The position numbers were made by a program, and so were the translations under genes. A stretch of DNA of 64,000 nucleotides from Bdellovibrio sp. BCCA (GTDB lineage Bacteria; Bdellovibrionota; Bdellovibrionia; Bdellovibrionales; Bdellovibrionaceae). The stretch lies in contig NZ_JBBNAC010000001.1 of the NCBI RefSeq assembly GCF_037996825.1, positions 2,170,001 through 2,234,000 on the forward strand, given 5' to 3'. The notes under the pieces were generated by a model, which saw nothing but the letters and a program-made list of their open reading frames with translations, was not told the DNA's origin and did no database searches. This document shows, in pieces, positions 34,301 to 54,869 of this stretch; the stretch's first letter is position 1, and each line of letters opens with the position of its first letter.

Positions 34301-35547
34301 AACTGAACAATACCTTTTGCAGAATAAGAAGCATCCGATGCCGTCCAGCCGACTCCATCATCAGCAACGACCCACTTTGCTCCATCGTATTTCAAAATTT
34401 TATTCGCAGTTAATCCGGTGTCGTCAACAACACGGCCTTTGATTTTATTGACTGTTAAATTAGTATAAGTTCCAGAAACGTCTCCGCCGAAAGCAGCACT
34501 GGTCTCAATCACTGTTCCTTGCGGTAACAACGTTTTTGCAGCAGTTCCGTCCCAATAACGCAATTGTCCCGATGTCGACTGAATCCACATCGATCCTGTG
34601 GCGCTGACACCTAACGATGCCAACTGTCCTACAAGAGTCGCATCTTGAGCTGCCGTATAAGCTCCCACTCCCACAGTTCCCGTTACTTTTAACGAGCCAC
34701 CAACATAGACATTTTTATTGGCGTCAATGCTCATGGCCTCTGCAGAACCCGTATAAAATTTTAGACCATTTGAGTTTTCATTGCTTTCAATACGTGCTCG
34801 TTGTGTCGTTGTACCACTGTAAAACTCAACAGAGCTTGTTCCTCCGGCTCCCGTCGCAGCTCCCAAACGAAGTCGTGGAGAATTTTTCTGAATATCCACG
34901 TCGGCCGTCGCGGAACTTGTTCCCACTCCGACATTTCCTGTTGTCGAGATATTTCCTGTATACGAATTGGAACCATCAATTTTCGCGTAAAGAGAATCAT
35001 GGTTGTGTAAACTGCTGGCATCAGATCCATTTAACAATGACGTTAAAGCCGCTTGAGTTACGGTTGCATCTTTCGCAATAAAATCAGCAGCGCGTTTTCC
35101 CTCTAGCATATTTGTATTAAACGAAAAAGGTGCGGCACCCACCGTCTGCATATCTGAAAACGGCACACCGTCGACAAGAACCTCAATACGGCGCCAATCA
35201 TTTGCGACCGGCACATAAACTCCCGAACACGAATCTGAAATGCCGGGAGAACTATTATTAAAAATATTTGCAAAGTTATTACCCGGACCTGTCGAATGTC
35301 CTGTTGCTCCAATAAGAACCGAAAAAATTCCGAAAGCATTTGGTGAAACGCTTTGGGTGTCTTCGTAAAGGTAACATGATCCAGTCGGAGGATAGATTCG
35401 GTATTTTACAGTGACCGGTGTGTTGATAGGAACTCCACCTGTGTCAGTAAGACGTCCTTGAAATGGAATGAGCTGAGGCACGCTGTTTCCAGCGAAAGCC
35501 ACTTCGGCCATTCCAATAATGAATGCGATAATAAATTTATGGGCCAT
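31399..35547 (-). CDS. Fibre 3: MAT-type trimeric fibre with S74 chaperone and a divergent base
   Basis: 1382 residues from the ATG at 35547 (AGGGA site; an upstream TTG is less likely). Signal peptide ends near EVAFA. The base domain differs from the other four (LIPFQGRLTDTGGVP, NAFGIFSVLIG). The shaft has only one GNVGVGT unit but two long copies of a module starting near KAGDVMTG and including TGKFFxF.CGTTG and WTATGWACQAP. The S74 domain begins at about residue 1254 (SDRRLKKDI, GLIAQEVEQVEP), then a coiled coil. Its start overlaps the end of the lipoprotein gene by 11 bases, and the glycine-rich gene follows. Confidence 0.92.
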   Translation of the reverse strand: MAHKFIIAFIIGMAEVAFAGNSVPQLIPFQGRLTDTGGVPINTPVTVKYRIYPPTGSCYLYEDTQSVSPNAFGIFSVLIGATGHSTGPGNNFANIFNNSSPGISDSCSGVYVPVANDWRRIEVLVDGVPFSDMQTVGAAPFSFNTNMLEGKRAADFIAKDATVTQAALTSLLNGSDASSLHNHDSLYAKIDGSNSYTGNISTTGNVGVGTSSATADVDIQKNSPRLRLGAATGAGGTSSVEFYSGTTTQRARIESNENSNGLKFYTGSAEAMSIDANKNVYVGGSLKVTGTVGVGAYTAAQDATLVGQLASLGVSATGSMWIQSTSGQLRYWDGTAAKTLLPQGTVIETSAAFGGDVSGTYTNLTVNKIKGRVVDDTGLTANKILKYDGAKWVVADDGVGWTASDASYSAKGIVQFDTDATTSGLSVASGVASVNTGTTANKIVKLDGAAKLPGVDGSQLTNILATDLVSLLGTGIVQKNGAGSYSTVTVNGPLTYTAGALGLVDSGVTAGTYSKVTVDTKGRVTVGANIGSADVTGALGYTPLNKAGDVMTGSIGLGNYTNATEATLISGYGSGDKGKTWFNSTTGQVKYWDGTAAKALGISGAGLTSLGGQTGSTQTFSTGTAGTAPAWSSGSDIHTLNIPMASGAGTTAGLLSNADYVAFNSKQVAGNYITALTGDVTASGPGSAATTIAANAVTTAKILDGTILGADLNYGGVNTVTSGLVIKDNTGKFFNFNCGTTGDVATWTATGWACQAPTAPLPSCAANEVLKWNGTGWACGTDNAGTGTVTGVTATAPLASSGGAAPVISISNGTTAGQTLRWGGASWVAAQLSDSDITGLGTLATKNSVDLGTADATGTLAAARMPALTGDVTSTAGSLTTTLANSGVTAGTYSKVTVDAKGRVTVGATISSSDVTTALTYTPLNKAGDVMTGTIGLGNYTNATEATLIAGFTAADKGKTWFNSTTGQVKYWDGAAVKALGISGAGLTSLGGQTGSTQTFAIGTTGTAPGWSSGSDVHTLNIPMAATAGTTAGLLSKTDYDAFNSKQAAGNYVTALTGDVTASGPGSAAATIAANAITTAKILDGTILGTDLNYGGVNLATSGLVIKDNTGKFFDFACGTTGNVATWTATGWACQAPTTYVTGVTATAPLASSGGAAPVISISNGSTTGQTLRWGGASWTAAQLSNSDITGLGTLATKNSVASADITDGTITGADVSTSAALSVASVTTSGNASVGGTLTVTTSISAPSYNYTSDRRLKKDIVTMSGLDTILKLRGVRFNWIKDGKPEVGLIAQEVEQVEPDLVVTDERTGFKAVKYGNVVSPLIEATKELYGICVAHEEVIHKNTRDVASLKAEVQELKKQNEDLRKEIQEIRNMIMEQKR
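31952..34042. repeat. Internal duplication within fibre 3
   Basis: About 31952-32902 and 33009-34042 are two similar copies. In the KAGDVMTG part the period is 1140 bases (compare ATCACC-CTTTATTAAG at 32761 and 33901); an extra piece near 33190-33270 makes the second copy longer. Confidence 0.85.
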
Positions 35548-36082
35548 AAACAATCCCTGTTATCCCCGTTTGTAAATTCATTGTTGGAGAACTAAAATGT
35601 CCGTCAGTTCCCGCAATACTTGATGTGAATTGAACTTTGCCTGATGTGTCTTCGATCGCGTTTGCTGACGAAACCACTTGAAATGAGGCCGAGGTTGCTG
35701 GCAATACGAAGCGAATACGTGCTTTGGCGGCGGCCGTATGCCCCATCTTTGTTTTCGCGCGAACGTAAATATCCAACAGACCGCGAACAATCAAATGAAC
35801 TGTAAATCGCCCACTGGCACAGTTATCAGCTAAGCGCTGCCAGCTTGAGCCATCAAAAGAGTATTCCAACCCATACGATTTAGTGTCGCAGGTTCCTACC
35901 AGTACAAATTTTGTGGTTGGAGTTGTCGTCGAATAGTTGTCTGATCCGTCAAAAGTGGGAACGCTCGTCTTGATAAGCTCTTCCGAGCTTGGTGATGGCG
36001 ACGGAGAACAGGCGGCCAGCGTTATTGTTAAGAACGCGGCGACCCCGTTATTAAGAATTAGATACTGTAACGAACGAGTCAA
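35537..36082 (-). CDS. Lipoprotein, first gene of the fibre 3 operon
   Basis: 181 residues from a TTG preceded by GAGGTGG. The signal peptide ends in a lipobox (TLAAC, cysteine about residue 25), followed by a Ser/Pro-rich linker and a beta domain with a disulfide-capable pair (GTCDTKSYGLEYSFDGSSW and ADNCASGR). The last 11 bases overlap the fibre 3 start, so the fibre is translationally coupled to it. It could anchor or assemble the fibre at the outer membrane; this is inference from position. Confidence 0.8.
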   Translation of the reverse strand: MTRSLQYLILNNGVAAFLTITLAACSPSPSPSSEELIKTSVPTFDGSDNYSTTTPTTKFVLVGTCDTKSYGLEYSFDGSSWQRLADNCASGRFTVHLIVRGLLDIYVRAKTKMGHTAAAKARIRFVLPATSASFQVVSSANAIEDTSGKVQFTSSIAGTDGHFSSPTMNLQTGITGIVYGP

Positions 36083-36164
36083 AATCCACCTCGCAATACA
36101 TAACGGTGTTTTTGACCGAACTTTGAAGAAAACATTTCGATTTGTTACACGATTCTAACTTTAC

Positions 36165-36283
36165 GAGTCTTTTTTGTGTTGCTCCGTCCATCGATCGGGT
36201 GAGCGCAACAGGCCCACTTACCTGTAAATAAATTACATTGGTGCGACTTATTCCATGAATTGCGCTCCTACCAATATCGGAGC
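36165..36283. promoter_or_regulatory. Hairpin-rich divergent control region between fibre 3 operon and TIGR02147 gene
   Basis: The 252-base region 36083-36334 must hold promoters for both directions. It contains a TGTTGC (36177-36182)/GCAACA (36205-36210) stem with inner GCTC/GAGC pairing, and GCTCC (36264-36268)/GGAGC (36279-36283) around TACCAATATC. The string GAGTCTTTTTTGTG at 36165-36178 recurs exactly at 43325-43338. Confidence 0.45.
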
Positions 36284-36334
36284 ATTTGACTCGGTTTACC
36301 TCATGCCTTACGCCCTTGGTGACACTGAGGGGAT

Positions 36335-37093
36335 ATGGAATTTTCCGATTTTTTAAAAGAACATCATGAGCGAAGAAAACTTCGAAATCCGCAATACTCC
36401 TTGCGCGCATTTGCTAGGGATCTTGGCGTGTCTTCGGGGCGCCTGACTGACTATCTGTCGGGTAATACAATTCCTAGCGAAATCACTCTGCAAAAACTTT
36501 CTTCATCATTAGCCCTTTCATCTCTTGAGATGGAATCCGTTAGAGAGCTTTTGGAAAAACAAAAGTACATGTCTCGCGGTCAGGGTTTTGATCGGCAACT
36601 TACAGAAGAAGAATTCAAACAGGTTTCTGACTGGAGATGTTGGTCTATCCTTTCGCTTTTTAAAAGCAGCGAATTTCAGCCTGAGATTTCATGGATTGCT
36701 CAAAAAACAAAATTCTCCGTTCGAGAAGTTGAAGAACACATTCGCAACTTAGAAAATGCGGGCCTCGTCAAACAGACGGAATATGGTTACGTTCGTACAA
36801 ATCAAAGAGTTACAACATCCAATGACGTGCCTTCGCAGGCCATTCGCCAGGCCCATAAGCAATTTTTAAAAATCGCAGAGTCAGCAATGGACAACGTTCC
36901 TGTCGACAAGCGAGATATGACCTCGATGACGATGTGTATTTCATTAGAGAACTTACCTAAGGCAAAAAGTTTAATTGCCGAATTTAGAGCGAAATTGAGC
37001 GAGCTTCTTGAGAGCGGTCACGCGACAGAAATTTACAATCTTAACGTTGCCCTTTTTCCGGTTTTACCACAGGACTCTTATGAAAATGAATAA
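36335..37093 (+). CDS. TIGR02147-family (DUF4423) regulator
   Basis: 252 residues. The N-terminus has the family pattern DFLKEHHERRKLRNPQYSLRAFARDLGVSSGRLTDYL split by helix-turn-helix geometry, followed by a winged-helix-like middle (SVREVEEHIRNLENAGLV) and a C-terminal domain with MTMCISLENLPKAK and NLNVALFPV. The family is common in bdellovibrios and Fibrobacter and is thought to act in transcription control, though its function is not established. It is divergent from the fibre 3 operon and overlaps the start of the next gene. Ribosome site GAGGGG. Confidence 0.88.
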   Translation: MEFSDFLKEHHERRKLRNPQYSLRAFARDLGVSSGRLTDYLSGNTIPSEITLQKLSSSLALSSLEMESVRELLEKQKYMSRGQGFDRQLTEEEFKQVSDWRCWSILSLFKSSEFQPEISWIAQKTKFSVREVEEHIRNLENAGLVKQTEYGYVRTNQRVTTSNDVPSQAIRQAHKQFLKIAESAMDNVPVDKRDMTSMTMCISLENLPKAKSLIAEFRAKLSELLESGHATEIYNLNVALFPVLPQDSYENE

Positions 37094-37772
37094 GTATGTT
37101 TCTACTCTCATTGGAACGGTGATGCTTTTAACAGGAACGTCTGCCCATTCACATTTAAGGCTTGGCGATGAGATTGGAAATGGCGGTGGAGCTCTTCTTT
37201 GTAAGTACGACCTCACTGGAACAACCGAAATTCTATTTTATGATGAATATGAAGCTAGGTTTCGCTATGATTATTACGTTTCACGCTTACCGGGCGACCA
37301 GTCTCCACAAGAAAGTGCCGTGGCTTTTTTAGAAGGTATTAAAAAATTCGATCCAGAACTATTTGAGATTGCTGCCCGTTATGCCAGGTCGTTTATTGGT
37401 GATGCTGCTTTATTAGTTGAAAGCCGCTTTTTAAATACACCCGATATTGGATTTGGATTTATTCCTAGCAACTGTCAATACATTCAGTTGATTATTCAAA
37501 AACCACCCATTTTCCCTGGGGATCTCAGATATTGGGTGGACTTTGATCATTGGCAGCTACTAACAAACAATCAAAAAGGCATCGCCATTGTTCATGAGGT
37601 CCTCTATCGTCACGCTCGAGAAACAAATCCTGACATGTCATCGTCTGAAGGACTTCGTCATTTTGTTGGATTGATCATCTCCAATCGTGTCTCCAGTTTA
37701 TCACAAGCTGAATATGACAAGTGGAAGCGTCTTGCGGGAATTTTGGATCGCGCTACCACCATTAATCCTTAG
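37080..37772 (+). CDS. Exported protein with GNGGGALLC motif
   Basis: 230 residues from the ATG at 37080, which follows AGGA by five bases and overlaps the TIGR02147 gene by 14 bases; an ATG at 37086 is also possible. Signal peptide (MNKYVSTLIGTVMLLTGTSAHS) precedes GDEIGNGGGALLCKYD, a motif I have seen in small exported bdellovibrio proteins without known function. A later segment IVHEVLYRHARE resembles, but does not match, a HExxH zinc site. It is co-transcribed with the regulator and its 3' end overlaps the convergent KH gene by 11 bases. Confidence 0.75.
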   Translation: MKMNKYVSTLIGTVMLLTGTSAHSHLRLGDEIGNGGGALLCKYDLTGTTEILFYDEYEARFRYDYYVSRLPGDQSPQESAVAFLEGIKKFDPELFEIAARYARSFIGDAALLVESRFLNTPDIGFGFIPSNCQYIQLIIQKPPIFPGDLRYWVDFDHWQLLTNNQKGIAIVHEVLYRHARETNPDMSSSEGLRHFVGLIISNRVSSLSQAEYDKWKRLAGILDRATTINP

Positions 37773-38112
37773 GAGCGTAATACGGAATTTCGATAATGGC
37801 TCTCATTCCATGCATTGCCATTATCGAAGAAATCACGACTCGCAGAGCATTGATACAGCGACCTTTGGTGCCGATCAACCTTCCAATGGATTCACGACAG
37901 CAGTCGACCTTAAAGACAGTTGTTCTTGCTCCCACATCATAGGTCACGCGAACACTCGACGGAACGTCAACGATACTTTTGATAATGGATTCTAACAACT
38001 CACGGGTTTCCTCTCGATGATCCAATTCACCTTCGGGTGGTAATTCTTCTGTTTGAGCGGGCTCGGAGGCTAAATTGCTTTTGCGAATCATCTTAATCAC
38101 TTTTATTTCCAT
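37762..38112 (-). CDS. KH-domain RNA-binding protein (KhpA-like) 1
   Basis: 116 residues. After a charged N-terminus (EELPPEGELDHREETRE) comes one type II KH domain with the GxxG loop in RLIGTKGRCINALR and the following ISSIMAMHGMRAIIEI. KH proteins of the KhpA type bind RNA with little sequence preference and act in post-transcriptional control. Strong AAGGGG site. The upstream region holds hairpins (38247-38292). Confidence 0.88.
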   Translation of the reverse strand: MEIKVIKMIRKSNLASEPAQTEELPPEGELDHREETRELLESIIKSIVDVPSSVRVTYDVGARTTVFKVDCCRESIGRLIGTKGRCINALRVVISSIMAMHGMRAIIEIPYYAPKD

Positions 38113-38246: not shown

Positions 38247-38292
38247 GTGCTCCCGACGATCAGGGATCGTGCTCCTTGTTTTAAAGGAGCAC
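38247..38292. promoter_or_regulatory. Alternative hairpins upstream of KH gene 1
   Basis: GTGCTCC occurs twice (38247-38253 and 38269-38275) and both copies can pair with GGAGCAC (38286-38292). The second gives a 9-base stem, GTGCTCCTT/AAGGAGCAC. Between the two copies CGATC...GATCG can also pair. Mutually exclusive stems hint at a regulated leader, or a terminator for fibre 4, which ends at 38359. Confidence 0.4.
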
Positions 38293-38358
38293 TTTCAATT
38301 TCGGCAAATAAAATTTCAAGTGATAATTTGCGATTTCTTAGATCTTATACGAGGAAAA

Positions 38359-41300
38359 CTACTGGCAGAACTGATAGCTAGAATCTTTTTTGCACAATTC
38401 CGATTTCATCAATTGATTCTGTTCTTTCAAAGACTGAACTTCCTCCTTTAATGAGGCAAGGTCGGCCTTTTGTTCTTTTTGAGAATCCATCAATGAAATA
38501 ACAAGTGCATAAATTTCTTTAGTGGCATTCACCAGCATGTAAGAAAAGCCACTATAGTTAACGACTTTAATTTCTGTTTCTTTAGTATCTCCCGGATGCA
38601 TTTTCACCTGACGAGTTTCGACAAGTTCCGGTGCTACTTTTTCAAACTCTTGTGCAATAACTCCTAATCGATCGTGCGTGTCCTCTCGAGTTTCACCCAA
38701 ACCATTGTACTTATAATAAACCGGGCGAACTCCAAGGACCTCATTCAATCCCAAAGAAAAATTGCGAATGTCTTTTTTAAGACGAATATCGGAAGCGCAA
38801 GTACCGCTGGTACCGCCGTTATAACTCACACATCCTGTCGCCGTAATATTTCCTGACGAAGCCATAGAAGCGGCTTGCACGCCATTCTTACCTACGGCGA
38901 CCGTACCTTCTGCATAAATATCCCACGTATGAATGCCGCCTCCCCATCCACCAGGCATTGAAGTCAGACCAGCTCCGGGCGGAGTGACTGTCAATGTCGT
39001 ATCAGGCGCATTCGTTCCCATACCAATACTTCCGTTAGGATCGATGAAGAAACGGCTTTTATTGGCGACGTTATCGTGGATATAAAAGTTCTGTCCATTG
39101 TTGACGGAAGCATCTACTCCCATTTCAAATGTACTTGTTGCACTCTGCTTAAACTGAATGGCGCTTCGGCGATCCGTACCGCTGGCCGTAGCTATCGTCA
39201 AATAACTTGCTGTCGTACGACTGTTTCCGGCAATACCGGAACCAATCCCCAGGTTACCGACCACTTCCATTTTTACACCGGGTGTGCTGGTACCGACACC
39301 GACGTTGCCATTAGGAAAGGTGACTGATGAGATTGTGTTTGCAGAACGAGTTGCAACAATGGCAGGAGTACTAGCGCTCAACGCATCGTTGACAGTCTCT
39401 AATTGCCAAGTAGAGCCACCTGTTGCTCGCGCGCGCCAGTACTTGTTGTCAACTAAGGATGAAGAACGATACCAATATAAATACGGTTCACCAGCTCCGG
39501 GCTGTTCGATGGTGATACTTCCCGTCGGCCCCGAGACTCCGGAGCCTAGAATATGCAGCCGTGAAGCCGGCGTCGCAGTCCCGATACCGACGTTGCCCCC
39601 AGAAGCAATAGTCATTCTCGTTGCGCCACTGGTTTCAATGTTTAGATCATAAGCATCGTTTGTTCCTAACGTTGCCGTTCCAGCAAAACTATTTCCACCA
39701 TTACTAAAAAATCCAGATGCAGAGTAGTTCGTACAACCCATGACACCTGCAGCATCGAAGGTTAAAAGCTGTCCTACTGAACAGTTAAACGCTGTCACTG
39801 TCGAGCCCGTGCCATCACTCGCAAGAAGTCGGTTGGCAGTAAGTGAAGTGACACCTGTTCCACCTTTACTAACAGGAATCGTTGGAAGCTGAGACGTTGC
39901 AATAGTTCCGCCGATGTCTCCGAATCCCAGAAGGGCATTGACCCAATTAGTTCCGTCGTATCTCAAAGTCTGCCCTACTGCATAGGCAACAGGAGCCACA
40001 GACTTACCTTTGATTTTATCAACGCTGGTTGTGCTTGATGTGCCGCTGACATCTCCAGAGAATGTGGATGACGTTCCAAGTTTACCATTAAACGTATTCC
40101 AATCTGTGGAGCTTAAATAACCATTCGTCGAAGTATTCGCCTGAGAAATAGTGATGTTTGGAGTTAAGCCACCACTGGAAGATAAAGGTGCGCTAGCCGT
40201 CACAGTTGTCACACCATTTGAACCCGCTCCGTCACCAATTTTAACCCACGCAGCTCCTGTGTCTCGATAGAGCGAATTGTCATCCGAGCCGATATAAAGT
40301 CGACCTGCTGTTCCCGCTGCTGGGCGAGATGCCACGGTTCCTGTTTGTACACTTGGAGTTCCGCCGACATTCTGGATTGAATCCGTAATACCATAACCAC
40401 TCAACGTTGTTGGCTTGCCGGTTGTGATTTTACTCCAGTCAAGTGCAGGAATATCTGTTGCCGATAATGTTGTTCCTATTGTCACACGCCCTTGGGCATC
40501 TGTTGTGACTTTTGTATATGTGCCAGCCGTGCCTGTGTTTTTAAGAGTCAAAGCTCCTGCAGAAGACATCGTGGCGTCTCCGCTGATGGATACCGGCGCA
40601 TATTGAGTTGTTCCATCATAAACTAAAAACTGTGCCGCTGTTGGTGCTATTGTTGAAACCGCTTTGCCTTTGATTTTATCAACACTTGTTGAGTTGTAAT
40701 TTCCGGAAACGTCTCCGCTGAACGCTGTCGCCGTTCCAAGTTTGTTATTAAAGGTATTCCAATCCGTTGAAGTTAAAAGACCCGTCGTTGAAGTATTTGC
40801 CGTCGGAATGGCCACGTTACCTGCTGCAGTTAAACGACCTTGAGCATCGACTGTAAAACTTGGAACCTGTGTTCCTGAACCGTAAGAACCTGCTGTCACC
40901 GCTGTGTTTGCTAGAGAAATCGTTCCGGTTGTCGTTACAGGACCACCCGTTAATCCCGTACCGGTTGCCACGCTCGTAACAGTTCCTCCACTACCACTTG
41001 AAGAACCTACAACATCCCAGGAAGTTCCGTTATCGCGATAGATTTTAAAAGTGTCCGTTGCGACATAGAGACGTCCTGCTGTTCCTGCCGCACCTTTTGT
41101 CGCGTCCGTTCCTGATTTGATACTAGGGGTTCCCCCCGCATTTTGAACAGCATCGGTCACACCATAACCGCCAAGAGTTGTTGGTTTTCCCGTTGTGATT
41201 TTACTCCAATCAAGTGCGGGGATGTCTGTCGCTGATAATGTTGTTCCTGAAGTCACGCGACCTTGAGCATCGGATGTGACTTTTGTATATGTGCCGGCAG

Positions 41301-42984
41301 TACCGGTGTTTTTAAGAGTGGTCACACCAGTTGCTGACATCGTTACGTCACCACTGAGGGCAACAGGAGAATATTGAGTTGTTCCATCATAGACTAAAAA
41401 CTGCGCTGATGTAGGATTTGTCGCTGAAACTGAGATCCCTTTAATCTTATCGACACTTGTTGAATTGTAGGTGCCAGAGATGTCTCCACTGAATGACGTC
41501 GTCGTACCCAGCTTACCGTTAAATGTATTCCAATCTGTAGAAGTTAAAAGGCCCGTCGTCGAAGTGCTTGCGGTTGGAATTGCGACGTTGCTTGCGGCAG
41601 TCAAACGTCCTTGAGCATCGACTGTAAAACTTGGAACCTGTGTTCCTGAACCGTAAGAACCTGCTGTCACCGCTGTGTTTGCAAGCGAAATTGTTCCAGT
41701 CGTCGTGATCGTTCCACCAGTGAGTCCTGTGCCCGTCGCAACACTTGTAACAGTTCCGCCAGCATTGTTGTCGTTGGCCGGAGCCCATTTGGTTCCGTCG
41801 TATTTTAAAATCTGTCCTGCAGCTAATCCTGTTGTATCAACGTTAACACCTTTGATTTTGTTAACTGAAACAGCTCCGATGCTTCCGCTCACATCCCCGG
41901 CAACTGAAACGTTGATGGGCTGACATTGGAAAGAACCCGAAACCGAATTCCAATAAGGAGTTTCATAGGCGGCACAGTTTGCACTGCCCACAGCAGAGTT
42001 GAACGCAGCCACAGTGTGATAGTTATTCAAAGTTGAATTTAGATTCGTAACATCACTGATCGCAATCGCAGAGCCCAACCACTGAGTTCCGTCATATTTT
42101 AAAAACTGTCCGTTTGCAGGAGCGGCATTTGAGATCGCGACTCCCTGAAGTTTGACAACAGAAGGATTGGGATAATTTCCGCTTAAGTCGCCACCCGCTC
42201 CGCCTGTGGGCGTGCGAGCGTCCGTAAAGCGCGAGTCATTTCCTGCAGCCACCGTACCCGCCGTCGTTCCCACATTCAAAGTAAGTTGCGGTGTGGATGT
42301 TCCATTGGCGACAGAGATATAAGAATTCGCTGATGTCACGGAAGTAACTGTTCCTCCGGAAGCTCCTGTCACAGCTGCGCAAGAGAGAGCTGTTCCGTTC
42401 CAAGATAAAAATTCGTTTGCGTTACAAGTGGGCACTGTCGTCTTCAGTAAGAAATCACTCGCAATATTCGTTCCCAGTTTTTGTGCTGAAGCTGCATAGG
42501 CAGAATAAGGAACAGAGCGAATGATGTTGTCTGGAGAAATCAATCTCCATCCACTGCCATCGTGGAATTGCGCGCGCAACAACCGTCCGTCTGTATTAAT
42601 CGGAGCGTAAGTGCTGGAACCATCAGAACAGGTGTATCCACTACAAGCGCCGCAAGTGAATGTCGCTGAATTATTAAAAGCATCAAGAACGGTTGTGCCG
42701 CCAGCCAAAGGATAGTTGATCGTGCCCTTACCAATCGGAACGTCAAACACGCCTTTAGAATTGGCCATGTTAATGCCCGTCACATTCTCTTGATAGATAA
42801 CGCACTGACCGGAAGGATCTGTAATTTGAAAAATAAAACTGACGTTGGAAAACTCAAGTGGAGTGCCGTCGGATTTTAAGATACGGCCTTGATATGTCAA
42901 AGCGGATGGAGAAGCGTGAAGAGGCTCTGCCCATAAAAAAACAATCGCACTTAACAGAAGGACGTTCCGGATAAAGTGTTCCAT
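38359..42984 (-). CDS. Fibre 4: MAT-type trimeric fibre with S74 chaperone and terminal CX8C
   Basis: 1541 residues; AAGGAAG site before ATG. Signal peptide ends near PLHA, followed by the common base ([26 protein letters not shown]). The shaft contains a duplicated unit of 257 residues (period 771 bases) and three GNVGIGT-like repeats near the end. The S74 domain starts at about residue 1398 ([25 protein letters not shown]), followed by a coiled coil ending [12 protein letters not shown]. Fibre 5 ends in the same cysteine spacing. It is a single-gene unit with a long hairpin-bearing upstream region. Confidence 0.92.
40251..41758. repeat. Tandem duplication within fibre 4
   Basis: Two copies, about 40251-40985 and 41022-41758, with an exact period of 771 bases (257 codons); for example GTTGTGATTTTACTCCA at 40421 and 41192. 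Confidence 0.88.
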
Positions 42985-43463
42985 GTCTTCCTTATCGGAA
43001 GATTCTTAACCGATGTTTAACATCCAACGCAAAACTATTCGTATTAACTCATTAGTAATCTAGCTTGTCTCGTAATGAGACAAGCTAGATCCCTTAAACT
43101 TAAAAGAGTATTCACTTAAGAATATACGACCCCCAGCGACTCTCCCCTCAGAGTATTCTAAAACTTTCCCGTGCAAATTCATCGCAATAAGTCTAATCGT
43201 GGAAGCACTCGCTTCAACACTGCAGACCTCTTGATAAATGTTGATGAAAACTCTGACCAATATGGGAGCGAAGCCGTTCCAATTTCGACTCTGTATTCTT
43301 TGCTCCCGTACAATTGGGATCGTTGAGTCTTTTTTGTGTAGAAGAAATTTTCGTTTTCAAATTCTTAAACAGCTCAATCAAAATTTTTTTAGCCAACGTC
43401 ACCACGATGTTATGCAAGCAAGTGGCACAGCACATGCTTGAATGTTCAGTGGGGGTATTCAAG
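42985..43463. other. Long intergenic region with strong hairpins between fibre 4 and a secreted gene
   Basis: No credible gene is seen in these 479 bases. They include a perfect 12-base stem with 5-base loop (43060-43071 with 43077-43088), a direct repeat AGAGTATTC (near 43105 and 43150), GAAGC/GCTTC (near 43202), and a long interrupted stem in which CCAAT (43257-43261) and GGGAGCGAAG (43264-43273) pair with CTTTGCTCCC (43298-43307) and ATTGG (43313-43317). It then carries GAGTCTTTTTTGTG (43325-43338). Promoters for the divergent genes must lie here. Confidence 0.7.
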
Positions 43464-47200: not shown

Positions 47201-50200
47201 CGATGTCACAGCATTCGCAGCAATCGTCCCGGCAACGGATCCAGGACCCGTCGCAGTTACATCACCCGTCAATGCCGTGAGATAATTTCCTGCAGGTTGT
47301 TTCGTATTAAATGCGTCGTAATCTGTTTTACTTAAAAGACCCGCCGTCGTTCCTGCCGTTGATGCCATTGGAATATTCAATGTGTGAGTATCGGAGGCTG
47401 AAGACCATGCTGGAGCTGATCCAGCAGTACCAATCGCGAATGATTGTGTTGAACCTGTTTGTCCTCCAAGAGATGTTAAGCCCGCACCAGAAACACCGAG
47501 TGCTTTCACAGCTCCATCCCAATATTTAATTTGATTTGATGTCGTGTTATACCAAACTTTACCTTTGTCGGCAGCAGTTAAACCTGCTGGATCACTCGCC
47601 AAACTATTCAAACCCAACAAACCTGTCATCACATCACCAGCTTTGTTCACTGGCGTGTAAGTCAATGCTGTCGTTACATCGGCGGCACTGATATTCGCAC
47701 CCACAGTCACACGGCCTTTAGCATCGACAGTGACTTTTGAATAAGTTCCCGCCGTAACTCCCGAGTTCGCGAGTGTCGTTGTTAATGATCCCGCAGTCGA
47801 AGTTACATCACCCGTTAATGCAGGCATACGCGCTGCTGCCAGTGTCCCTGTTGCATCCGCAGTTCCAAGATCTACAGAGTTTTTAGCAGCAAGAGTTCCA
47901 AGACCTGTTACATCTGAATTTGAAAGTTGAGCTGCAACCCAATTTGTTCCATTCCAACGGAGTGTTTGTCCTGATGTTGTACCATTTGAAATAGAAATTA
48001 CCGGAGCCGCTCCTCCTGAACTCGCTAAAGGTGCCGTTGCTGTCACACCAGTCACAGTTCCAGTTCCCGCATTGTCAGTTCCGCAGATCCAACCCGTGCC
48101 ATTCCATTTTAAAACTTCGTTATTCGCACAAGCCACGTTGTTAGGTTTATAAGAAAGATATTGTCCCGCTGCTGAAGAAACACGGTCCACGCGAACGTTA
48201 TTAACCGTCACCGCACCTAAGTTAGTGATAGCGGCATCACCTGACATGGTTTGTGCCACAGCTGCATTTGTTCCATCACCGATCCAAATTTTTCCATTCG
48301 CAAGCGAAGGTAACAATGGTGTCGGAGCCTGACATGCCCAACCTGTTGCTGTCCATGTGGCTACATTACCAGTCGTTCCGCAAACGAAATCAAAAAACTT
48401 TCCTGTGCTATCTTTTATAACTAGGCCTGACGTTGCCGTGTTGACACCACTGTAATTGAGATCGGCACCTAAAATAGTTCCGTCTAAGATTTTTCCTGTC
48501 GTTACTGCATTCGCTGCGATTGTCGCCGCTGCAGAACCAGGACCTGCTGCTGTTACGTCACCAGTCAATGCAGTTACATAATTACCTGCAGCTTGTTTTG
48601 CATTAAATGTATCGTAATCCGCTTTACTCAAAAGACCCGCTGTCGTTCCGGCCGTCGACGCCATTGGAATATTCAATGTGTGAGTGTCAGATGCTGAGTT
48701 CCATGCCGGAGCAGTTCCCGCAGTGCCCACTGCAAATGATTGTGTTGAACCCGTTTGACCACCAAGAGAAGTCAAACCAGCGCCAGAAATACCCAAAGCT
48801 TTGATGGCAGATCCATCCCAGTATTTCACTTGGCCTGTTGTCGTGTTAAACCACGTTTTACCTTTATCAGCAGCACCGAAGCCAGAGGTCAAAGTTGTCT
48901 CAGTCGCATTTGTGTAATTACCTAAACCAATGGCTCCAGTCATGACGTCGCCAGCTTTATTAAGTGGCGTGTATCCCAATGCCGTCGTTACATCTGCAGA
49001 ACCGATATTTGCACCAACAGTGACGCGACCTTTGGCATCGACTGTTACCTTTGAATAAGTCCCTGCTGTCACTCCTGAATTTGCGAGTGTCAATGCGCCC
49101 GTATTTGAAATCGTTGCATCCCCTGACATAGTCACAGGAGTCGCTGTATTAGAAGCGTTACCCACGATGATTTTACCATCAGCTAATGTCGAGCTTTGCG
49201 CATCCGTGATACCGTAACCCGCAAGAGTTGTCGGCTTCCCTGTTAGATCAGAGAAATTAAGCAAAGTGTTGACCCAATTTCCAGCGGCACTGTCATAACG
49301 AAGAACTTGGCCTGTGGCATAGGCACCAGGAACGACAGCCTTACCTTTGATTTTGTCTACGCTCATTGTGCTGGATGTTCCACTCACGTCACCGCTGAAT
49401 GGGGAAGAGGCACCAAGTTTGTTATTGAAATTCGAATAATCCGCATTTGAAATCGTACCGGCAGTCACACCAGCCGTAGATGCTGAAGGGATGCTGAGTG
49501 TATGCGTGCCACCTGACGAAGTGAAACCATAGGATGTTGCAGAAGACGCAGGAGCAAGACTTTGTGCGCCCGTCGTATCTCCATTGATGGAAGTAATTCC
49601 GCTGCCAGCCACTCCAAGAACTTGGGTACCAGAGCCATTTTGATATTTAAGGACTCCGCCTTCATACCAGAGACTGCCCACTGCAGGCGACGAAGGAGTC
49701 GTCGCATTGAATTTCACTGTGTCTGTAGAAACAGTGCCTGCACCCAAGGCTGTTACGTTGGAAATATTCTTGGTGCCCATGTCGATATCACCCGACATTG
49801 TACCGCCAGCTAAAGGCAACTTCGTGTTATCAGCTGTATTCAGAGTTTTCCAAGTTCCATCACCACTGAGATACTTCGTACCATCCGCAGTTCCGGAACC
49901 TAATCTTCCGACATTAAGAACACCACTTGTGATAGCAGAAGCATTCAATGAACCAATCGCTTGGCAAAGAAACTTATCAGTGATCACAGACCACACCATA
50001 GCTTCATTCGCAGCACAAGGAGAAGTCGGAATCATTTGCGTTCCACCCCAAGCATTGCGAATGTCTTGCATGCGCACGTACTCAGGCTTCCAGGTGTTTG
50101 TATCCCACAACATCACTTGACCATCTACTGGAAGCACGTTGGAGACATTGCGACCTTGGATATTTGCTACAGTGGGATTAGGATAGTTGCCGCTCAAATC

Positions 50201-52525
50201 TCCACCAGCAGCACCACCAGGAGCCGTGCCCGTGATAGTAATGTTACCAGCTGCAGTCAAACGACCTTGAGCATCTACAGTGAACGTTGGCACTTCCGTT
50301 GTAGAACCATAGTTCCCCGGAGTCACAGCCGTGTTTGCTAGATTTAGAATAACAGAGCCAGAAGCTCCTCCGCCATTAAGACCTGTTCCTGCCGTAACAC
50401 CAGTAATCGTACCGCCTGAACCACTGGCAGAACTGATCAAGTCCCATGCAGAACCGTTATAGCGATAGATTTTTTGTGAATCCGTTGCCACGAAAAGATC
50501 ACCCGTTGCCGGAGCCCCAGGTTTCGCAGAATCTGCACCAGACGAGATCTTACCAACGCCGCCACCATTCGTAACAAGACTATCGGAAATACCGTAGCCA
50601 CTTAACGTCGTCGGTGTACTTGAAATTTGCGACCACGGAATATTTCCCGTGATATCAGTGGAAGTTAAAGAAGCACTTCCTGATACGACACGACCCTGAG
50701 CATCCGTCATCACTTTATAATAAGATCCCGCAGTGCCCGTGGCTTTAAGACTTAATACGCCTGAGTTGCTCAACGTTGCATCACCTGACACAGTCACCGG
50801 CGCCGCAGTATTAGAAGCATCACCCACTAAGATTTTACCATCGGCAAGTGTTGAACTTTGCGCATCCGTAATACCATAACCCGCAAGAGTCGTCGGCTTC
50901 CCTGTAAGATCAGAGAAATTAAGCAAAGTGTTGACCCAATTCCCAGCGGCACTGTCATAACGAAGAACTTGACCTGAAGCGTATGCACCAGGAACGACAG
51001 CTTTGCCTTTGATTTTATCTACGCTCATTGTGCTGGATGTCCCACTCACATCTCCACTGAACGTCGAAGCCGTTCCTAATTTATTATTGAAGTTCGTGTA
51101 CTCAGTATTTGAAATCGTACCCGCAGTCACTCCACCTGTAGAGGCTGAAGGAATGCTTAATGTATGCGTACCGCCCGCTGTCGTGAATCCGTAAGAATTG
51201 GCAGAAGAAACTGGAGCAAGACTTTGTGCATTTGCTGTATCACCATTGATGCTTTGAACGCCGGATCCGGCAACGCCAACAACGACGGCAGCCGTTCCAT
51301 TCCAATATTTAATTTGATTCGTTGTTGAATTATACCAAACCTTACCTGTATCGGCCGCCGTCAATCCCGTTGGATCTGAAGTATTATTTGATAAGTGCAA
51401 AGATTTATTTGCCGACATCGTCATATAACCGATGTTCGTCAAGTTGTTGCTATTCATATCAATAGCACCACTCATCGTTCCACCAGAAAGCGGAAGCGCA
51501 TTAGTCGCAGAACCCACTGTCAAAGTACTTGGAGATGTACATTTCCAACCCGTTGCAACAGTCCAGGTAAGAAGCTCTCCTGCGGCACAATCCAAATGAG
51601 TTAAGGTTGCTCCCGTAGTTGAGTCCGTGGAGACTATACGATTCACACCAGGATTTGTAAAAAGTTTTGCTGTTGTTACAACACCATCTGCAATTGTTGG
51701 ATTCGGATAAGTTCCCGTAAGATCGCCACCTGCGTTTCCTGTCGGAATGCGAGCGTTTCCAAAACGAGGGTCATCACCCGCAGCAAGAGTGCCTGCCGTT
51801 GTTCCCGTTGTTACACCGACTGTTACGTTATTTGTTCCAGAAACTGTAACGGGACCACTTCCTGTAACAGAATTCACGACTCCGGTGACTGAAGAGCCAG
51901 TCACACAAGTGAGATTTCCACTCACCGTCGACAACACTTGTCCTGCCGCACAACTAGGAATGTTCGTTTTTAAAACAAAATCTGTCGGTAAATTATTTCC
52001 CAATTTTTGAGCCGATAAAGAGTATCCCGCAAATGGAACCGACCGAATCACATTGTCAGGAGAAATCGTTCTCCAACCACTGCCATCATAGAATTGCACT
52101 CTTAAACGGCGGCCATCACCTGCAGCGGGTGGATAATTCGCCGAAGTATCTGCACAAGTATAAGTACTGCCCACGACAGAGCACGCACCACAAGTGTACG
52201 TTCTATCGTTATTAAAAGAATCCAAAACGGAAAAAGATCCACCTAGAGGATATTGAATCGTACCATTTCCAATTGCCACATCAAACACACCGCCGGAATT
52301 CACCATGTTGTAACCAGAAACTTGTTCTTGATAAATTACGCAAGAACCCGCCGGATTCGTGATCTGAAAAATAAAGCTGACGCTGCTGTACTCTAACGGA
52401 GTTCCGTCGGTTTTAAGAATCCTTCCTTGATATGTAAGGGCTGTTGGAGCACCCCATGAAATCAGTGGAAAAAAGAGGAACGCTATTAAACTGCTGGTAG
52501 TTACGAACCGTTTGTGAGTTTTCAT
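44282..52525 (-). CDS. Fibre 5: giant MAT-type trimeric fibre with S74 chaperone and terminal CX8C
   Basis: 2747 residues from the ATG at 52525, which gives a signal peptide (MKTHKRFVTTSSLIAFLFF...ISWG); an upstream in-frame start at 52558 only adds a charged leader. Common base ([25 protein letters not shown]). The very long shaft contains two internal duplications (periods about 1314 and 1662 bases) and a module closely matching that of fibre 3 (KAGDVMTG, TSGLVIKDSTGKFFDF, WTATGWACQAP). Four GNVGIGT-like repeats lie near the C-terminal end. S74 begins about 155 residues from the end (SDERLKTDV, GVIAQEVEKTAP), then a coiled coil ending YLCLQDPKAVICK. Divergent from two TIGR02147 genes. Confidence 0.92.
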   Translation of the reverse strand: MKTHKRFVTTSSLIAFLFFPLISWGAPTALTYQGRILKTDGTPLEYSSVSFIFQITNPAGSCVIYQEQVSGYNMVNSGGVFDVAIGNGTIQYPLGGSFSVLDSFNNDRTYTCGACSVVGSTYTCADTSANYPPAAGDGRRLRVQFYDGSGWRTISPDNVIRSVPFAGYSLSAQKLGNNLPTDFVLKTNIPSCAAGQVLSTVSGNLTCVTGSSVTGVVNSVTGSGPVTVSGTNNVTVGVTTGTTAGTLAAGDDPRFGNARIPTGNAGGDLTGTYPNPTIADGVVTTAKLFTNPGVNRIVSTDSTTGATLTHLDCAAGELLTWTVATGWKCTSPSTLTVGSATNALPLSGGTMSGAIDMNSNNLTNIGYMTMSANKSLHLSNNTSDPTGLTAADTGKVWYNSTTNQIKYWNGTAAVVVGVAGSGVQSINGDTANAQSLAPVSSANSYGFTTAGGTHTLSIPSASTGGVTAGTISNTEYTNFNNKLGTASTFSGDVSGTSSTMSVDKIKGKAVVPGAYASGQVLRYDSAAGNWVNTLLNFSDLTGKPTTLAGYGITDAQSSTLADGKILVGDASNTAAPVTVSGDATLSNSGVLSLKATGTAGSYYKVMTDAQGRVVSGSASLTSTDITGNIPWSQISSTPTTLSGYGISDSLVTNGGGVGKISSGADSAKPGAPATGDLFVATDSQKIYRYNGSAWDLISSASGSGGTITGVTAGTGLNGGGASGSVILNLANTAVTPGNYGSTTEVPTFTVDAQGRLTAAGNITITGTAPGGAAGGDLSGNYPNPTVANIQGRNVSNVLPVDGQVMLWDTNTWKPEYVRMQDIRNAWGGTQMIPTSPCAANEAMVWSVITDKFLCQAIGSLNASAITSGVLNVGRLGSGTADGTKYLSGDGTWKTLNTADNTKLPLAGGTMSGDIDMGTKNISNVTALGAGTVSTDTVKFNATTPSSPAVGSLWYEGGVLKYQNGSGTQVLGVAGSGITSINGDTTGAQSLAPASSATSYGFTSSGGTHTLSIPSASTAGVTAGTISNADYSNFNNKLGASSPFSGDVSGTSSTMSVDKIKGKAVVPGAYATGQVLRYDSAAGNWVNTLLNFSDLTGKPTTLAGYGITDAQSSTLADGKIIVGNASNTATPVTMSGDATISNTGALTLANSGVTAGTYSKVTVDAKGRVTVGANIGSADVTTALGYTPLNKAGDVMTGAIGLGNYTNATETTLTSGFGAADKGKTWFNTTTGQVKYWDGSAIKALGISGAGLTSLGGQTGSTQSFAVGTAGTAPAWNSASDTHTLNIPMASTAGTTAGLLSKADYDTFNAKQAAGNYVTALTGDVTAAGPGSAAATIAANAVTTGKILDGTILGADLNYSGVNTATSGLVIKDSTGKFFDFVCGTTGNVATWTATGWACQAPTPLLPSLANGKIWIGDGTNAAVAQTMSGDAAITNLGAVTVNNVRVDRVSSAAGQYLSYKPNNVACANNEVLKWNGTGWICGTDNAGTGTVTGVTATAPLASSGGAAPVISISNGTTSGQTLRWNGTNWVAAQLSNSDVTGLGTLAAKNSVDLGTADATGTLAAARMPALTGDVTSTAGSLTTTLANSGVTAGTYSKVTVDAKGRVTVGANISAADVTTALTYTPVNKAGDVMTGLLGLNSLASDPAGLTAADKGKVWYNTTSNQIKYWDGAVKALGVSGAGLTSLGGQTGSTQSFAIGTAGSAPAWSSASDTHTLNIPMASTAGTTAGLLSKTDYDAFNTKQPAGNYLTALTGDVTATGPGSVAGTIAANAVTSGKILDGTILGSDLNFTGVNTATTGFAMVDSTNKFYEFACSTVGHVPTWTAAGFACQAQTAPGALQTSGGTMTGMLTLATGTTTLSPMRIPAGTLVTTPVSGNIESNGTNLYWTNSTPARQRVVSYPDANAANGQLLIGNGTGFSLANITAGSGITVTNSSGGITIAASGGGGTVTSVTSANSDISVATTTTTPVLTLNSGTAGGAGDANKIAKLDASGLLTTAMLPNHDVSKLTTGVLPVARGGTNNGTLGVTAGGILYMDGTKAMTTAAGTSGQALISAGAGVPAFGTLGLAGGGTGATTAVAARSNLGLGTAAIQNTGTVSGSVPLVGVSGITNNSMCTSDGTGSIICNSAIPSGSQWTTSGSNIYYNVAGGNVGIGTATPSALLHLERSSNGIETSYIYNPSTGTAGVASLGASSSAANISIQAYSIGYTASGAAKTGGTALTSSSSTGLAVVSNNASGNLRFYTGGSADVNERMRIDAAGNVGIGTATPTTRLYVSDSNPTLTMYDTGSSTEQDLRATSAGLEIRKGGITYYNFSTAGKGLGLGTTPLTGNALTLSTGAKIGSTRGTGLGDLQIEAGGATAASTNANGNDLALRSGISTGTGSSNIEFYTATSGATGTSDNTPSLKMTILGSGNVGIGTPAPAGRLESNLSTSTGGTTGRGVYSNILLTGSAAYSSLNGFDAYMDHTSSGAVTLMNGLQNSLRMNGTGSISSAKGVNTAITAFAGAITTATGEHIAILSGGGTIATGYGVRIQDIQATTAYGIYQEGTDDLNYFAGSIGIGKTNPSYKLDVVGDISASGCLRSSAGVASGTCASDERLKTDVQSFDLGLDALMGINPHFFKYNGLGGHPVSEKPELGVIAQEVEKTAPQLIVTKKVKLNPGDDQKTEIKQVNYTAFTYVLINAVKDLYHRWFDDSQALHREIASVKAENAQLKVRIDKSEQENAAKTKELEAIKVYLCLQDPKAVICK
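47026..51250. repeat. Two internal duplications within fibre 5
   Basis: About 47026-47800 matches 48320-49100 (period near 1300-1314 bases), and about 49140-49600 matches 50800-51250 (period 1662). The second pair looks above 90% identical over roughly 200 bases by eye. Confidence 0.8.
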
Positions 52526-52812
52526 ACATTCTATTTCGGTTCGTGGAATTAAATGCAAAAGGAATCGACAGCGATATCTGAATCCATGTGTGCGGGATCA
52601 GTATTTTTATCACGCTCCCAATATTGTGGGAGCATGTTTGCGAACGAGAGCGGTACATGAAGAGCGTCACCACCTTTTTGAGCGATCATCGCTCCCATCG
52701 CACCTGGAGCGATATTGTGAGGAGGCCCACAATCCACTTTTGACAATAATTCTTACGGATTCCTATTCTGCACTTAACGATAATTGAGAAAATAAGAAAT
52801 CGAGAAGCAGCA
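52526..52812. promoter_or_regulatory. Hairpin-rich divergent control region between fibre 5 and TIGR02147 genes
   Basis: Three strong hairpins: GCTCCCA (52614-52620)/TGGGAGC (52627-52633) around ATATTG; GAGCGA/TCGCTC (52680-52694); ATTGTG (52714-52719)/CACAAT (52728-52733). The first resembles the GCTCC-CCAATAT-GGAGC hairpin upstream of the other TIGR02147 gene. A 65-codon frame on the minus strand (52549-52746) is not convincing as a gene. Confidence 0.5.
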
Positions 52813-53613
52813 ATGAACTACACCGTGGACTACCTTCGTAAATGGCACAGCAGTATTCGCTCTAAAAACCCGTCATTTTCATTAAGAGCTTTTGCCAACA
52901 AGCTGGGTGTCTCTATCGGAAGACTTTCAGAGTATTTTTCTGGAAGCCGCCAGATTACCGCAGCCGCAATCGAACAAATTATTGAAAACATCAATGACAA
53001 CGCCATTGCGACCGAACTTCGCGAATGTGTCGCCAAAGATATTAAAGCGCGCAATGGGGAACTTTTCCGCGAAAACATTCTTGCCGATTCAACATTTGAA
53101 CAAATTAAAAATTGGCATAACTTTTCAATTCTCGCTCTTATCGGAACAGACGACTTCAGACCTGACCCCCAGTGGATCGCCCGTCGACTGCATCTGGATA
53201 TATCCATAGTCCATGATAGCCTGCAGAATCTAAAAAAACTGGGAATTATTTCCGACGATCAAGGTACATATAAAATTTCATCCGATTGTCTAGTGGCCGC
53301 AACAACAACACCCAGCTTGTCAATGCGGGAGCATCACCGGCAGATGTTCATGCAAGTCGCAGAAAGAATCGGCAACCTACCTAAAGGAATGAGTGACATA
53401 AACTCCATCACTTTGTCCGTACGACCAGACAAACTCCCCAAAGCCAAAGAAAAAATTCAAGCCTTTCTCATTGAAATGAGTGAACTCTTAGATATTGCAC
53501 CTCGCACAGAAGTCTACGGACTTTGCATCGGTTTAGTCCCTTTAAGCCGAATTGACGAAAGCAATGACACACTTAAAAACTTCCACAGCATTAAGGACTC
53601 AGTAGAATCATGA
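52813..53613 (+). CDS. TIGR02147-family regulator, first of a pair
   Basis: 266 residues. Family pattern at the N-terminus: YLRKWHSSIRSKNPSFSLRA, FANKLGVSIGRLSEYFSG (helix-turn-helix). A middle winged-helix-like part has LDISIVHDSLQNLKKLGIIS, and the C-terminal domain has the family ITLSVRPDKLPKAKEKIQAF and YGLCIGLVPL. Its stop overlaps the next start (ATGA), so the two regulators are made together and may form a heteromer. Divergent from fibre 5. Confidence 0.87.
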   Translation: MNYTVDYLRKWHSSIRSKNPSFSLRAFANKLGVSIGRLSEYFSGSRQITAAAIEQIIENINDNAIATELRECVAKDIKARNGELFRENILADSTFEQIKNWHNFSILALIGTDDFRPDPQWIARRLHLDISIVHDSLQNLKKLGIISDDQGTYKISSDCLVAATTTPSLSMREHHRQMFMQVAERIGNLPKGMSDINSITLSVRPDKLPKAKEKIQAFLIEMSELLDIAPRTEVYGLCIGLVPLSRIDESNDTLKNFHSIKDSVES

Positions 53614-54371
53614 ACTTATCGACGTTACTTCATAATGAGTTTGAAAAAAGAAAAAATAGAAATCAACGTTACAGCATCAGAGCTTTTGCAAAAAGTCTCG
53701 AAATGGAGGCCGGGGCCTTGCTTCGACTTATGCAAGGCAGACGGACTGCAAAGGATACAACGGCAATCTCTATCCTAAAAAAACTCGAAGCTCCGCTGGA
53801 AGTTCAGTCGCTAATCCTCCGGGAACTTGAAAACCGTCGACAGATGAATAAGAAAAGAATGATCGCTCCTCAAAAGAAGATTTTTCCAATACATGAGTTT
53901 GAGGACCATATAGACATTCACCATATTTATACCTTGGAAGCGCTAAACCTTCAACAATTCAAGAAGACACATCAGGTGCCAGCTCTTGCTTCCGCTCTTC
54001 GTATTTCACTAGACGAAGCGACCAATATCATTAATCTTCTGACAAAGCTCGGAGCCATTTCTGTTCTCGATGAGAATTTTGCAGTTGTTTATAAATCTTT
54101 TTCGGCCGTCCCTTATGATTTTCCCAGCGAAAAACGCAAGATGTTGCAAAAAGAATTCTTGAAAAAAGCACAAGAGGCAATTGATCTCTTTCCTCCTGAG
54201 TTAAGAGAGACAGATATGCTTTCTATTCCTATCTCCAGCAAAGATATTGAAAAAATTAAGATGATACTAAAACACACGTATTCCAAAATTCATAAGATTT
54301 CCGCAAAGAGAACCAAGCACAGCCACCTTTACAATCTTTGTTTGGCATTCTATCCAGTGGTGGTTCCGTGA
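53610..54371 (+). CDS. TIGR02147-family regulator, second of a pair
   Basis: 253 residues, more diverged than its neighbour. N-terminus LLHNEFEKRKNRNQRYSIRA, FAKSLEMEAGALLRLMQG; middle YTLEALNLQQFKKTHQV and LRISLDEATNIINLLTKLGA; C-terminal SIPISSKDIEKIKMIL and YNLCLAFYPV. It is basic overall. Overlaps the upstream regulator by four bases. A KH-domain gene follows after 117 bases that hold a T-rich hairpin. Confidence 0.85.
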   Translation: MNLSTLLHNEFEKRKNRNQRYSIRAFAKSLEMEAGALLRLMQGRRTAKDTTAISILKKLEAPLEVQSLILRELENRRQMNKKRMIAPQKKIFPIHEFEDHIDIHHIYTLEALNLQQFKKTHQVPALASALRISLDEATNIINLLTKLGAISVLDENFAVVYKSFSAVPYDFPSEKRKMLQKEFLKKAQEAIDLFPPELRETDMLSIPISSKDIEKIKMILKHTYSKIHKISAKRTKHSHLYNLCLAFYPVVVP

Positions 54372-54393
54372 CCATTTCAGTTTGATTAAGCAT

Positions 54394-54419
54394 GTTGCGA
54401 GCGAGTTCCCTGCCGCAAC
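54394..54419 (+). terminator. GTTGCG/CGCAAC hairpin with T-rich tail
   Basis: GTTGCG (54394-54399) pairs with CGCAAC (54414-54419), followed by CTATTTTCTTTTT. It may terminate the regulator pair or form part of the KH gene 2 leader. A stronger version of the stem precedes KH gene 3. Confidence 0.5.
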
Positions 54420-54488
54420 GCTATTTTCTTTTTATGCTACAACATTAAGAATATTTCGCGTTACTCTTCAAAGAGGAGAGATTTTCAA

Positions 54489-54869
54489 ATGACGATGAAA
54501 GTTCCAGAAGTAATTCGCAGACAGGCTAAAAAAGAAATTGATTGTCTTTCGCCCAAATCAAACGCGGCCATCTTACATTTGGATCAGTCACAAGATACTG
54601 TCAGAAAAAAAATTCTGGATATCGTCAACGCAGCACTCAAAACGCTTGTTGTTTCTCCTGATGATACACGTGCGGAAGTTCAAATTGGCGAACGAACGAC
54701 GATCTATTTAATTAAAACCATCCAACCCGATTTCGGTCGTATTCTTGGATCCGGAGGAAAGACCATCAACTCATTAAGAACCTTGGTCACAGCGATGGCT
54801 GCGAATCAAGGAATTCGAGCCATCGTTCAAATTGACAATGAAGAACAGTATTTTCTAGGCAATCGATAA
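54489..54869 (+). CDS. KH-domain RNA-binding protein (KhpA-like) 2
   Basis: 126 residues with an AGGAGAG site. N-terminal basic part (VIRRQAKKEID) then one KH domain: VQIGERTTIYLIKT, the GxxG loop in RILGSGGKTINSLRTLV, and MAANQGIRAIVQID. It is closer in layout to KH protein 3 than to KH protein 1. Immediately downstream lies a decayed fragment of the metalloprotease gene. Confidence 0.88.
   Translation: MTMKVPEVIRRQAKKEIDCLSPKSNAAILHLDQSQDTVRKKILDIVNAALKTLVVSPDDTRAEVQIGERTTIYLIKTIQPDFGRILGSGGKTINSLRTLVTAMAANQGIRAIVQIDNEEQYFLGNR

Follow-up and report, generated by a model that had tools for sequence, protein, structure and literature searches.

The prey that a Bdellovibrio can hold and enter is decided by its mosaic adhesive trimeric (MAT) fibres, and a single cell has a dozen or more fibre genes to choose from. 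The window considered here, meaning the whole stretch of 64,000 nucleotides analysed (G000:C1:2170001-2234000), comes from the 4.01 Mb genome of Bdellovibrio sp. BCCA. In it, two fibre operons are transcribed away from genes of the TIGR02147 family, with a gene for a KhpA-like KH protein close by. What does this repeated layout mean? The answer preferred here, with a probability of roughly 0.55, is a local gene-control unit centred on TIGR02147 regulators (a helix-turn-helix, HTH, followed by DUF4423), to which KH proteins have been repeatedly recruited; fibre control is one use of this unit, not its definition. Candidate regulators can be named at specific fibre loci, including one in a model strain (locus L267 of genome G006, which we take to be HD100-like), together with one candidate operator sequence.

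A sequence-only reading of the window had set the fibre 3 operon opposite one TIGR02147 gene, with KH gene 1 nearby, and fibre 5 opposite two, with KH gene 2 nearby. Every gene it named was found where it had placed it, and profile matches bear out both loci:

30363-31385, minus strand: glycine-rich downstream member of the fibre 3 operon (open reading frame; weak Gly_rich_2 Pfam match)
31399-35553, minus strand: fibre 3, MAT-type, with C-terminal S74 chaperone (PF13884, E 8e-14)
35537-36082, minus strand: first gene of the fibre 3 operon, its product likely a small lipoprotein (LTITLAACSPS; open reading frame and translation)
36335-37093, plus strand: TIGR02147 #1, XRE HTH and winged helix (DUF4423), GRLTD recognition helix, divergent from the fibre 3 operon (NCBIfam, 115 bits)
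37762-38112, minus strand: KH gene 1, KhpA-like, GxxG intact, convergent with TIGR02147 #1 and its exported partner (PF13083, 65 bits)
44282-52558, minus strand: fibre 5, MAT-type with S74 chaperone, 2758 amino acids (PF13884, E 2e-10); the true start is probably a later ATG, at about 52525
52813-53613, plus strand: TIGR02147 #2, GRLSE recognition helix, divergent from fibre 5 (NCBIfam, 94 bits)
53610-54371, plus strand: TIGR02147 #3, overlapping #2 by 4 bp (NCBIfam, 62 bits)
54489-54869, plus strand: KH gene 2, KhpA-like, GxxG intact, codirectional and 118 bp after TIGR02147 #3 (PF13083, 56 bits)

PF13884 is matched in fibres 2-5, all of them long, modular, exported proteins that end in the S74 region. 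The genome as a whole has 15 S74 fibre matches, 28 TIGR02147 matches and 10 PF13083 KH matches.

The layout exceeds chance. It was counted in a discovery set of eight genomes of the same genus, with the core KhpA, a second conserved KH gene and KhpB left out; chance levels came from coverage-based expectations and distance shells, and divergence was measured from fibre starts to TIGR02147 starts. A TIGR02147 gene is at most 1.5 kb away from 12 of 48 KH paralogs (0.88 expected, P 2e-10); 7 of 99 fibres (MAT/S74) are divergent from a TIGR02147 gene with the two starts no more than 1.5 kb apart (0.38 expected, P 1.5e-7); and five KH genes have both a TIGR02147 gene and a fibre within 3 kb (0.14 expected, P 3.5e-7). 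These counts include two hand-added open reading frames of genome G005, one of them a plain XRE HTH without DUF4423; recounted without both, 11 KH-TIGR02147 pairs, 4 triples and 6 divergent fibres remain, still far above expectation. A first circular-shift test on S74 coordinates gave no MAT-TIGR02147 signal, because the S74 region lies several kilobases from the fibre start; the signal appears with starts and divergence.

Sixteen further genomes of the genus formed a replication set. There, TIGR02147 genes lie within 1.5 kb of 18 of the 82 KH genes, at a density of 0.082 per kb that drops roughly tenfold, to 0.003-0.013, at greater distances; fibres number 7 within 1.5 kb of KH genes and 2 at 3-7 kb. 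When KH genes were collapsed at 60% identity into 52 ortholog clusters, 23 clusters had a TIGR02147 gene within 1.5 kb, as against 3 in a shell of equal length at 4-5.5 kb, and 8 had both a TIGR02147 gene and a fibre. The 31 KH-TIGR02147 pairs comprise 18 codirectional, 9 divergent and 4 convergent cases, and some of the genes overlap. The neighbourhood count that the sequence-only reading had proposed thus comes out strongly non-random across the genus, for fibre-TIGR02147 divergence and for TIGR02147-KH pairing alike.

What kind of protein stands at the centre? All three TIGR02147 genes listed pass the curated NCBIfam cut-off of 50 bits on whole-protein score, and the order of domains in the family, an N-terminal HTH followed by a DUF4423 region, is borne out. 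In Pfam, #1 matches HTH_3 and DUF4423, #2 matches HTH_3 below the cut-off, and #3 has no HTH match. In an AlphaFold model of #1 (pLDDT 90.6, pTM 0.65), the HTH resembles HigA (Z about 10) and the winged helix resembles ArsR/MarR (Z about 9), and there is also a long terminal helix; as modelled, this is the architecture of a DNA-binding protein. A sequence search of the PDB with TIGR02147 gave no match. A further TIGR02147 match at 62709-63502 of the window has three stops in its second half and is probably a decayed gene.

A DNA-binding regulator calls for binding sites, and inverted repeats of the form GCTCC/GGAGC are the candidates:

36264-36283: dyad GCTCCTACCAATATCGGAGC, candidate operator, 52-71 bp upstream of TIGR02147 #1; one of the seven genome sites
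38271-38290: dyad GCTCCTTGTTTTAAAGGAGC, between the end of fibre 4 and KH gene 1, with 9-bp arms; terminator-like, its function ambiguous
38359-42984, minus strand: fibre 4, MAT-type with S74 chaperone (PF13884, E 6e-13)
43258-43269: half-dyad CAATATGGGAGC, upstream of fibre 4; 17 such sites in 4 Mb
52614-52633: dyad GCTCCCAATATTGTGGGAGC, between fibre 5 and TIGR02147 #2
52691-52710: second dyad GCTCCCATCGCACCTGGAGC, 77 bp from the GCTCCCAATATTGTGGGAGC dyad
52740-52769, plus strand: promoter-like TTGACA-18-TATTCT for TIGR02147 #2, with both dyads upstream (consensus scan only)

The pattern GCTCC-N10-GGAGC occurs seven times in the genome, and four of these sites are in the regions listed (36264, 38271, 52614 and 52691); a reversed-pattern control gave two. 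A dyad or half-dyad lies upstream of fibres 3, 4 and 5, and the region upstream of fibre 2, read through, holds no such element. The repeats had been described as hairpins around a CAATAT core in both divergent regions. They are indeed present in both; the core lies within two dyads only (36272 and 52619), and a reversed copy directly adjoins a third (52712). A perfect dyad of another sequence, ATCTAGCTTGTCTC-GTAAT-GAGACAAGCTAGAT, with 14-bp arms, is also present upstream of fibre 4 (43058-43090).

Over all loci compared, exact dyads lie upstream of 8 of 130 TIGR02147 genes, one of the eight being an edge artefact, with 1.2 sites expected; for KH genes the figure is 2 of 131, with 1.0 expected. 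Two GCTCCC...GGGAGC dyads are found at each of L267 (G006) and L197 (G009), those at L197 spaced by 76-77 bp as in the window, and one at L166 (G019, from another family). The strict pattern GCTCCCA...TGGGAGC has 17 sites in 40 genomes, six of which lie upstream of TIGR02147 genes in G000, G006, G009 and G019 or, in one case, at another place in the same G009 locus. The dyads also follow the recognition helix of the regulator: an exact dyad stands upstream of 5 of the 9 regulators with a GRL[ST] helix and of 2 of the 104 others (P 1.8e-5); the dyad-bearing regulators of G006, G009 and G019 have the GRL[ST] motif in common. This recurrence, the tie to the GRL[ST] class and the position of the promoter-like site downstream of the dyads favour reading them as DNA operators of a TIGR02147 subclass over RNA hairpins bound by KH proteins.

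In the preferred account, each TIGR02147 regulator would bind inverted-repeat operators (here GCTCC-N10-GGAGC) in its own promoter region, and so control its own gene and the surface operon that diverges from it, which here means MAT fibres 3 and 5; fibre 4 might be controlled as well, through the half-dyad. A co-transcribed exported protein would usually come under the same regulator. KhpA-like paralogs, multiplied only in this genus, would have been repeatedly recruited to such units, their likeliest job being post-transcriptional control, of stability or translation, over the mRNAs of the unit. TIGR02147 is the hub, most likely a transcription factor that acts locally through the dyads as its operators.

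Several observations count against this account or narrow it. KH genes near fibres in general are not clearly enriched in the discovery set (3 against 1.1 expected at 1.5 kb), and TIGR02147 is absent beside most fibres; MAT genes were counted and placed by their S74 matches, which misses fibres lacking S74. MAT-TIGR02147 divergence occurs with no KH gene at L267 (G006), L268, L269, L270 and L271. Among the strict dyad sites, 11 of the 17 are not at a TIGR02147 locus; an exact dyad is missing from four of the nine GRL[ST] regulators, a search relaxed to mismatches found no further cases among them, and dyad spacing varies (9, 10, 16-17). The GRL[ST] motif itself was picked after three of the five positives had been seen. 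Finally, no S74 fibre lies closer than 3 kb to 22 of the 31 KH-TIGR02147 pairs. As most pairs are without a nearby fibre, fibre choice can be only one use of the unit. The sequence-only reading had proposed a control module for fibre choice that joins the regulator and the RNA-binding protein; the module is partly supported, its dedication to fibre choice overreaches, and the many divergences without KH count against that dedication too.

The role of the KH proteins is where the nearest competing account departs. KH 1 and KH 2 keep the GxxG motif, as GRLIGTKG and GRILGSGG respectively. Neither is an ortholog of the conserved core khpA: core copies elsewhere score 87 bits, and the window copies score well below this and group with variable paralogs in the tree. 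A third copy lies further along:

58655-58984: KH gene 3, KhpA-like, beside a cluster of TPR and exported genes, not adjoining TIGR02147

Outside the genus, members of the family and order have 1-3 KH matches, most order members only one, although TIGR02147 counts there reach 28; judged by these profile matches, the expansion of KH genes belongs to this genus alone. The TIGR02147-linked KH genes are spread over several KH clades, which implies repeated origin or repeated retention of the pairing. KH 2 clusters with copies from L124, L102, L106 and L112 (support 96/81), and TIGR02147 #3 with L018, L106 (two copies), L124, L091 and L098 (support 100/100); KH genes are present at most loci of the latter clade, and the window, L106 and L124 contain both partners in three different arrangements. 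GTTGCG...CGCAAC inverted repeats occur just upstream of KH 2 (54394-54419) and KH 3 (about 58605-58629), and similar repeats precede KH genes at L106, L119, L254, L256 and L251; the count upstream of KH genes is 7 of 125 against 1.2 expected, some of the seven being orthologous, and an autoregulatory leader is possible.

In that competing account, TIGR02147 controls its neighbours, and the KH proteins are general KhpA-like RNA chaperones that act elsewhere and are merely driven by the same regulator, with no special link to fibre mRNAs. This is possible, if less probable than recruitment to the unit. In the discovery set there is no clear excess of KH genes around fibres that lack TIGR02147, and KH paralogs of other clades stand, without fibres, beside HTH-TPR regulators (L099, L100, L118, L122) or small XRE regulators (L087, L113, L123), so that KH-HTH pairing is broader than TIGR02147. 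A UPF0109 (KhpA-type) protein, Bd2626, and the DUF4423 protein Bd3700 are both higher during intraprey growth in one published table (PMC12546842); in the literature searched, DUF4423 appears in that table only and TIGR02147 not at all. Two facts pull the other way: the excess of fibres close to KH genes in the replication set, and locus L250, where two cassettes of TIGR02147, exported protein and KH run codirectionally into a MAT gene.

A tighter scheme, which we hold more tentatively still, makes the KH protein a dedicated part of the switch: TIGR02147 and its own KhpA paralog, often with an exported zincin-like sensor or partner, would form a two-level cassette that sets which surface fibre is made. 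If true, a genus-specific, repeatedly assembled cassette would equip every fibre locus with a switch of its own at both the transcriptional and the post-transcriptional level. With KhpA-like proteins expanded in this genus and linked to transcription factors, post-transcriptional control of predation becomes open to direct test. The exported partner is represented in the window by one gene:

37080-37772, plus strand: exported protein of the GNGG/HExxYR family, overlapping TIGR02147 #1 by 14 bp, zincin-like (open reading frame, family alignment and model)

A co-directional open reading frame begins at the end of the TIGR02147 gene in 80 of 118 distinct cases, and most of these partners belong to one exported family (44 distinct members), with a GNGG-like motif and an invariant HE within [AL]LxxHExxYR; across the order, its genes abut or overlap most TIGR02147 genes. 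No Pfam or NCBIfam family matches it above cut-off; it is an undescribed protein family. The model of the partner is confident (pLDDT 89.5, pTM 0.83); a Foldseek search with it gave no significant match, and the weak structural matches (VIA, Z 3-4) are mostly zincins, which is suggestive only of a zincin-like fold. At the fibre loci of the KH 2 clade (the window, L102 and L124) the partner is missing, and a KH gene or a fibre takes its position.

Might the closeness have no function at all? Fibres, TIGR02147 and KH genes could be accessory genes of rapid turnover that collect in shared plastic regions. Some of the loci recombine: fibres 3 and 5 and the fibre of L271 have shaft segments in common at 65-87% identity. 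Copy numbers, too, differ strongly between genomes. Such hitchhiking is nevertheless unlikely, as the association drops steeply past 1.5 kb and does not extend over tens of kilobases, and overlapping genes, the scarcity of convergent pairs and clade-level co-inheritance speak for function; a simple recent segmental duplication also fails to explain the repeat, TIGR02147 #1 and #2 being only 31% identical.

The recurrence of the layout in varied forms can be followed from locus to locus. MAT-TIGR02147-KH triples occur at both window loci, at L102, at L124 and its ortholog L236, and at L111, L202 and L250. At L102 (G005) the MAT gene diverges from a TIGR02147 gene whose end overlaps KH by one base; at L124 and L236 the KH gene diverges from TIGR02147, which is followed by a codirectional MAT gene. 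Gene maps confirm further divergent pairs in G006, G001, G000 and G005. One of them, L271, lies 13 kb past the end of the window and is the third fibre/TIGR02147 divergence of the same genome (5166-14793 of that locus): a 2527-amino-acid fibre and a small lipoprotein face a TIGR02147 gene, 55% identical to #3, and its exported partner. A small putative lipoprotein gene opens the fibre 3 operon, L267 and L271 alike. The L271 divergence had been overlooked in the sequence-only reading, as had the half-dyad at 43258, the exported-protein gene and KH gene 3. S74 domains also occur at L207 (1083-3052) and L274 (9713-11449), on proteins whose N-terminus is pseudopilin-like (GFSLVE), in contrast to normal MAT fibres.

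The weakest alternative, an RNA-level switch in which the dyads are hairpins bound by KH proteins, can draw on their ability to form stem-loops, their variable spacing, as in hairpin loops, and the GxxG motif kept in KH 1 and KH 2, and is very improbable, as the sole good promoter-like match for TIGR02147 #2 would leave both dyads outside its transcript, the dyads are enriched upstream of TIGR02147 and not of KH genes and track the recognition-helix class, and an Rfam search of the whole window gave no match. A defence or toxin-antitoxin role, prompted by the HigA-like HTH, was set aside: PADLOC gave no credible match, only weak winged-helix similarity to Csa3/CasR, and the partner of TIGR02147 is exported.

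How does the unit, so read, compare with known systems? The MAT fibres of Bdellovibrio bacteriovorus are long and exported, with modular shafts and a C-terminal S74 chaperone, and several fibres of the window are alike; in the paper on these fibres, the passages searched give no regulator or operon for MAT genes (PMC10769870), and the TIGR02147/KH neighbourhood is new here. KhpA (KH_KhpA-B, PF13083; UPF0109) is a short single KH domain with GxxG intact, as are the window copies; its partner in pneumococcus is KhpB/EloR (PMC6403258). The core gene is conserved and present once, whereas here there are up to about 13 matches per genome, with N-terminal extensions and often adjoining HTH regulators. 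TIGR02147/DUF4423 is a paralog family named by NCBIfam from Fibrobacter, without a recorded function; the proteins of the window pass its cut-off and contain DUF4423. Local regulators of the LysR or XRE type, transcribed divergently from their targets and acting at inverted-repeat operators, are well known; here, too, a regulator faces its likely target with dyads between them. What sets the present units apart from such divergent regulators is the company they keep, an adjacent RNA-binding protein and an exported, possibly zincin-like partner.

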